Source: Antedon mediterranea
Taxonomy: Eukaryota > Echinodermata > Crinoidea > Comatulida > Antedonidae
Assembly: GCF_964355755.1 (NCBI RefSeq)
Contig: NC_092671.1
Span: 997,001 to 1,061,000, forward strand
Reading direction: 5' to 3'
Length of the DNA stretch: 64,000 nucleotides
A model generated the notes under the pieces. It saw only the letters and a list, made by a program, of their open reading frames with translations. It had not been told where the DNA came from and did no database searches. This document shows, piece after piece, positions 1 to 3,100 of this stretch. Each line of letters begins with the position of its first letter. Position 1 is the stretch's first letter. Position numbers and translations under genes: made by a program.

Positions 1-106
1 TATAAAAGAATCATAGCAAACATATTATTTTTCCCGCTAACCATGATATACTGTATATGCCAATTTGTTTGCATTTTGTTTATAGGTTGTTACCATGGAT
101 ACCAAC

Positions 107-154
107 CTGACTTCCGACCGATTTCTTCATTTCTTTTGATTTGCTTTTAGAATC
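107..154 (-). CDS. MYO5: Myosin V loop-2 exon, probable alternative cassette
   Basis: This 48-nt, phase-0 exon encodes [16 protein letters not shown] and follows a cttcag acceptor; its donor is gttggt, weaker than consensus. Its last seven residues KKSVGSQ repeat those ending the preceding exon (977-1105), with most codons differing synonymously. Including it adds 16 mostly basic or polar residues to the actin-binding surface loop 2. Skipping it also leaves a normal KKSVGSQ junction. Confidence 0.6.
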
Positions 155-3100
155 CTGAAGCTGGAAACCACACAATTATTTAAGTAAAGTGACAAAATAT
201 TGTCACCATTCCAGAAATTAGTATTAGAACGAACTTAATTTCACTCTCTTTTTGAAATCAATTGAAAATGCTCAGTTTTAAGCTAAATACTAAGAATTCA
301 GGTCTACTCTCAGCCTCAAAGTAAACATATTTCTTAAATGAGAAACCAATTTTGTGAAGACCTACTATTACAAATCATTTTGTCTTTTAGTTACGTCATT
401 ATGCATTGAGATCAATTACTGCTCCAAAAATGTGGTTTTTTTTATTTTGCAGGAATACTTAATTATATGATTCTTTGCTAGCATACAAATACAATATGAC
501 AATGATAAAATGTAGGATAAAGGATACCAAATAAAATAAATTTAATATTTAAACAAAAATGAGAAAAGTATTATTAATAAAATGCATAACATTGGGAATT
601 GCAAATAAACAAATGGTTTTAAAAAATTATGAGAAATGAATGCATGTTAGCATATGAATACAATATGTAATCAATATAGTAATGAATGGCTGTCACTATA
701 TTGATGAATACTTGAATGTCTCATCTCTTAAGTACAGTCTTAAGTAAGATGCATATATGTTCTACCAACTTAATCTAAGACTTTTAGTATAATTTAGTCA
801 TTTGGTCATTAATTTACAGATTGTCTATGTTGGAGATTATCTGTATTGAGCAGGACGAATGTCTTTAATCCGATGAGCCGAGAGATTATCTGTATTGAGC
901 GGGACGAATGTCTTTAATCCGATGAGCCGAGAGATTATCTGTATTGAGCAGGACGAATGTCTTTATCGTCACTTACCTGGGAACCAACAGATTTTTTGAA
1001 TTGTTTCTGCGTCCTCACAGCTGGGGTCATTGGTTTTATTGCAGATCTCTTTGGGTCAACTGCTTTTGTGTTCTTGTCTCTAAATAAGTCTGCTACAAAC
1101 TCATACTACATAGAAAAATAAAAATCAATTTTCTAATTTATATATTGCTTTTAACAATTAGTAGATTGTCTCGAAGCAAATAAAAATTGAGATCAGAGAT
1201 GAAACAGAATGTAACAAATCCCACCCCATTTTTAAAATAAAATATTCTTTATTCATCATCTTAAAAAATGAAAACATAAACACAATAAAAAAGGAAATTT
1301 AGAGATAAAAAAAGAAACACATAAAAACTTATGATGAGCTTGATAAATATTGTCCTTCAAAACTACGAGAAATTATATATATTATATGTCTTACTCAGTT
1401 AAAAAAACAACTATCTTTACAAAAATCTTAATTTTACTGAGTAGAAAAAACACCAAAAAAATGGATTCAAAAATATTACTGTCCTTCTATCGTAATCCAA
1501 TGTATAATATTACCTGACTTGCACGGAGAATATTGAGATGTTCATCATTGACGTTGTCCCTATTCTTTTCCACAAAGCCTTCTGCTGTGTATTCAACCTT
1601 GTCAGCAAAATGATGCACAACGTACGAACTGTTAGACGTTCTAGGCTTCGTGAAATGCTTGGATTTGTTAACATGTTGAGAGTATAATTTCTGACACCAG
1701 TTGTCATCATTGCCTTTAGGTACCTGAAAATAAACAGATGTTTTTTTATGTGTTTGCTTATTTCAAATCTATTGATATAAGTTACAATCAATTTAGCCTT
1801 ATTTTAGTAGTTAAACCAACTCTAATTTAACTTCTCTTGTGTCCATTTTTTTGTCTTTTACGTATGATATTGATAAGCATTATTTACAATATAATTATTT
1901 TATTGGTTAAACCAACTCAAATGTAACTCTTGTATCCAGTTATGTGCTTTTAAGGCAATAACTAAAATATGCCATGTTTGTTGCTAAATCGTATTGATGT
2001 AATTGTTCTTAATTGAATAATTTATAATATAGCCATTTACTATGACAATTGTAATGTTAATTTTAGCACCAACATGATTAATTCAAATGTATTTTAGTGT
2101 AAAATTCAGATGAAATAATACAAGGGTTTCTCCAAAAGAGACAGAAAATTGTGTTTTGTCTATTTTTTTTTTAATTTACTCGTATGAGTATATAATTAAT
2201 TAAAATGTATTTTAGTATAAATTGTAATCTTTTTCAATGGCACCTACCATGCATTCCTCATCCAACAGATCCAGTATTCCCAGTTTGTTTTCAATAAGAT
2301 CTATACATGGCTGGTTGTCATAAAAATCAATCATGTTCCATTCTATTTTCTCACGGATATATTCCTCTTGCTCCAATTTGAAAACATGCTAAAAGGGATA
2401 TTGAAATAAAGGTAAAATAAATATCATGGTTTTAACTATACAAAGCAAAGTGAATTTCCATTTTAAATGGACCAATAAAATTTCTTGAGTGGTTGCATCT
2501 AAATGGAGGTACAACTAAAATAAGCAAAAAGCTAAAGAGCTTTCAGGTAACACTAATCCTTCCTCAGTACAATCACTATATTTGAAAACATTTGAAACAA
2601 ATATTAAAACTTAAAATGTTGAATATTAATTTAGACTCTATTTGGAATATCCTAATATAAAGATTAAGCAATATTATTTCAGAACTTATTAAATATGTTA
2701 TCGTTACCTGCGTAAATTGTTGCTGTAACTTCTCATTTGCATAATTTATGCAAAACTGCTCAAAGCTATTTATGGCAAACATTTCAAACCTACACACAAA
2801 TTTAAAAGAAAAAAACAAAATTTAATATGCAATTTTGAGAATGGAGACTAGCTGTAACACCACTACAAAAAGTATTAACTCATTTCTTTAACTTTATAAA
2901 TCTAGATAGAAAAGAACCTACCCATAAATATCAAGTACGCCAATAAAGTTGTGTGCTTTCGTTGTCGGTACAAGAGCTTTATTTACTTGTTTCACAATCC
3001 ACTTGAATAATTGAGCATAAATGTGTTTTGCTAATGCATCACGCCCATTTAATGCCTGCAACAAATATTACAACATATTGTTAGTAGTATAGCAGGAAAA

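Follow-up and report, generated by a model that had tools for sequence, protein, structure and literature searches.

A candidate optional exon in loop 2 of the Antedon mediterranea class V myosin gene carries a second copy of the loop's ending

By analyzing 64,000 nucleotides of the genome of the crinoid Antedon mediterranea (C2:997001-1061000, hereafter the window; genome of 354 Mb in 18 contigs), we identified a small exon, exon B, which appears to be a real coding exon and is most likely used optionally, as a cassette, by the single class V myosin gene. It follows exon A, which encodes the start and the body of loop 2, and both exons end in the same seven residues, KKSVGSQ. The exons, their reading frames, the quality of their splice sites and the exclusively synonymous divergence of the shared ending were determined computationally. 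We infer optional use of exon B from the fact that both KKSVGSQ copies have been kept, that the frame is open in either arrangement and that its splice sites are matched only by those of real exons.

The gene is located on the minus strand and runs beyond the left edge of the window. The adjoining 9 kb to the left (L009) were therefore added to the analysis. The original prediction had assigned the gene to class V myosins, and the broader evidence agrees. In a search against solved structures the top matches were myosin Va and Vc, above myosin X and class II. The neck, encoded by exons in L009, comprises six IQ-type repeats, of which 5 were recognized by pattern and the initial one (RMQKTVRGYLQRKR) by eye. 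In addition, a DIL globular tail domain (PF01843, E 2.6e-24) was found on the same strand approximately 16 kb downstream (C2:979664-979930), putatively as part of the same gene. Searching the joined protein against the genome revealed no second copy or retrocopy of the myosin V gene; other matches were exons of other myosins. The gene encodes a class V myosin heavy chain and is present in single copy.

As predicted, two successive exons on the minus strand end in KKSVGSQ at phase-0 donors (Table 1). Exon A translates to 43 residues and the segment 107-154 to 16, with a GT in phase 0 after each. Exon B lies inside loop 2, and the frame stays intact with or without it, as the A-F and A-B-F joins are both open and in phase 0. 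The predicted location at the end of loop 2 agrees with the class V loop-2 ending at the joint to exon F. The stretch from exon A to window position -1500 contained no further phase-0, KK-containing exon candidates besides A and B.

Table 1. Features of the loop-2 region of the myosin V gene (window positions unless otherwise indicated)
Feature	Position	Strand	Remarks
Exon preceding loop 2 in the myosin V gene, ending ILRASQ	1514..1723	-	donor CAG/gtaata
Exon A, loop 2 start and body, ending KKSVGSQ	977..1105	-	donor CAG/gtaagt, the best of the gene
Exon B, candidate cassette, 54 nt, 18 residues	107..160	-	starts and ends in phase 0; acceptor gtggtttccag; donor CAG/gttggt
Exon B, short form via alternative tandem acceptor, 48 nt	107..154	-	drops residues LQ
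First part of the intron separating exon B from exon F	1..106	-	exon F outside the window
Next exon F (FRDSLKILM...)	starts at -1380 = L009:7620, C2 ~995,620	-	phase 0
Three 49-bp tandem repeat copies	833..979	.	100/98/78% identity to reference copy; intron directly downstream of exon A donor

Splice sites were scored with matrices. Exons of the gene itself served to train the donor matrix, which is small, with exon B and the site under scoring excluded; exon B was kept out of the acceptor matrix as well. The exon B donor reached a score of 9.07 (4th of 21), and its pairing energy with U1 was -7.7 kcal/mol (10th of 22). By these rankings, and allowing for the small size of the matrix, the donor is not weak for this gene, and the original prediction's argument that a weak donor fits regulated use is not supported. 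At the opposite end, the acceptor at 160 outscored the one at 154 (8.60 vs 3.05), so exon B more likely begins at 160 and gains the residues LQ. The predicted exon and its donor end thus stand, but its start is better placed at 160 and its contribution becomes 18 residues (LQ plus the proposed 16). Across the 22.9 kb gene region, only 8 AG-GT pairs of 15-300 nt reached the joint scores of exon B: 7 real exons and exon B. The real exons are favored by this scoring, having contributed to the training, and the informative part of this result is that no false exons appeared.

The KKSVGSQ ending is encoded by AAA AAA TCT GTT GGT TCC CAG in one copy and by AAG AAA TCG GTC GGA AGT CAG in the other. 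Five of the seven codons differ between the two copies, through changes at 7 of the 21 bases that are all synonymous, and all four codons with at least four synonyms differ. In simulations without selection started from either copy, the peptide remained unchanged after 7 differing sites with a probability of approximately 2.5-5e-6, which bears out the claim that the protein rather than the DNA has been preserved. This argument, drawn from seven codons, suggests that each copy is joined to exon F in some transcripts. Were exon B always included, only its own copy would have to fit the joint and the copy in exon A would be free to drift, yet both have been kept.

The two exons may have arisen by duplication, as was proposed. 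Both do end in KKSVGSQ, but no trace of a duplication was seen at the DNA level, as neither exons A and B nor their flanking introns showed similarity above that of shuffled sequences. An old duplication and convergence on a constrained class V ending would therefore look alike. Vertebrate myosin Va has the same ending, KKTVGHQFR, where loop 2 meets the same downstream segment (the joint corresponding to loop 2/exon F reads KKTVGHQFRNSL), which identifies KKSVGSQ as the way in which loop 2 ends in class V. To leave the motor core unchanged, any insert at precisely this joint has to finish with its own copy of the anchor, so the repetition can be explained by constraint and copying is not needed.

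We delimited loop 2 from after LFR to VGSQ. It measures 34 residues with a net charge of +7 without exon B and 52 residues with a net charge of +10 with it. Inclusion brings 5 lysines and a net charge of +3, consistent with the predicted insertion into a lysine-rich loop. By the same delimitation, loop 2 of vertebrate myosin Va has 45 residues and a net charge of +5; its letters were entered by hand and agree with the structure-search alignments where they overlap. These values are in line with the published 44 residues and +5 (PMC3180451).

How exon B is used can be weighed from these observations. Since both of its splice sites are good, equal to those of the gene's other exons, constitutive inclusion is possible: all transcripts would read A-B-F, and loop 2 would simply be longer and contain KKSVGSQ twice, near in length to that of vertebrate myosin Va (52 and 45 residues by the same delimitation). 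We consider this unlikely, as it leaves unexplained the exact first KKSVGSQ in exon A, retained while all four codons with at least four synonyms changed, and exon A joined directly to exon F already makes a complete class V loop 2. The preservation of both ends would also be accounted for if exon B replaced the end of exon A, so that each transcript carried one KKSVGSQ. This would require an internal donor at 1018 (GCT/gtgagg). The site lies in phase 0, and its use would leave loop 2 with 38 residues and a net charge of +6. The donor is poor by both measures and was rejected: it scores 1.28 compared with 12.84 for the normal donor of exon A, its U1 pairing is worse than that of every real donor of the gene, and 28% of GTs in the gene region score equally well. 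We regard replacement as highly improbable.

It is barely credible, finally, that 107-160 goes unused, either as the remnant of a copied exon or as a chance occurrence in the intron. The lack of DNA similarity above shuffles in exons and flanks would suit such an origin, but KKSVGSQ is expected by chance only about 2e-6 times on one strand of 2.4 kb, the divergence is synonymous only, and both splice sites are intact and strong. Overall, a cassette exon is the reading that we favor.

Several other features were noticed in and around the locus. The last, divergent copy of the 49-bp tandem repeat overlaps the exon A donor. An interspersed element of approximately 125 bp (window 1231-1355), with at least 39 other genomic copies at 73-77% identity, is located in the intron that precedes exon A, and a downstream intron of the gene harbors a tandem array with a palindrome-like unit (accatagagatctctatggt ... 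ggtgttgttaacaactccc; L009 4600-4980). A TGCATG motif (Rbfox-type) is located at window position -18 (L009 ~8983), 124 nt downstream of the exon B donor; since about 0.09 such motifs are expected per 300 nt and the motif accompanies 3 of the 22 donors, it is statistically weak and only a lead. Elsewhere, C3 carries about 20-25 dispersed exon copies of another myosin head gene (~19.6-25.1 Mb). The two that were compared (L010 and L011) are nearly identical in protein, and these copies possibly represent a large tandem or segmental amplification.

If exon B is indeed a cassette, joining exon A to exon F would produce the short, 34-residue loop 2, and the A-B-F form would insert 18 residues, extending the loop to 52 residues and raising its net charge from +7 to +10. 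As exon B brings its own KKSVGSQ, the segment joining the motor core at exon F would be identical in both forms, and in the A-B-F form the first copy would sit within the flexible loop. In myosin V, loop-2 charge is reported to alter actin affinity and run length (PMC3180451), a dependence also stated in PMC3887004 with reference to Hodges 2007. From the added positive charge, stronger weak actin binding and longer processive runs would be expected. For exon B this direction is uncertain, since the loop-2 insert of nonmuscle myosin II lowers motor activity. That a class V transport motor switches the length and charge of loop 2, and hence its run length, by means of a cassette with its own conserved anchor copy seems to us plausible rather than probable. 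Engineered changes of loop-2 charge in myosin V alter actin affinity and run length, and a natural splice form, if true, would be a control used by animals themselves. The repeated anchor points to a simple rule by which an exon can be added where the joint is structurally fixed.

In vertebrate myosin Va and Vb, alternative tail exons A-F, located between the neck/coiled coil and the globular tail, choose cargo partners (PMC6981383). They share the class with exon B, which in contrast lies in the motor domain. No alternative exon in a class V motor domain is described in PMC6981383, and class V splicing was confined to the tail in the open-licence literature that we searched. Within the motor domain, mutually exclusive exons tune muscle myosin heavy chain, where the members of a pair are similar in length and reading frame and homologous throughout (PMC3228551). 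By these standards exons A and B were rejected as such a pair, being 129 and 54 nt long, alike only in their last seven residues and without DNA similarity above shuffles.

Two further parallels concern loop 2 itself. A basic loop-2 extension tethers the class IX myosin motor to actin and is needed for single-headed processivity (PMC3887004). Exon B would likewise add a basic extension, but the class IX one is long and class-specific, whereas exon B is small, a candidate optional exon, and carries the repeated anchor. In nonmuscle myosin II it is established that alternative splicing adds inserts to loop 2 (NM IIA2, IIB2 and IIC2); these comprise 21 or 33 residues, are tissue-specific and reduce motor activity (PMC10480317). 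As in these isoforms, exon B is a small in-frame exon in motor loop 2, its splicing here being predicted. The nonmuscle inserts differ in belonging to class II and in lowering activity and, unlike exon B, the NM IIA2 insert (EMQSTQRAYFYRRFPILHLES) has neither a lysine-rich composition nor a KKSVGSQ-like ending.
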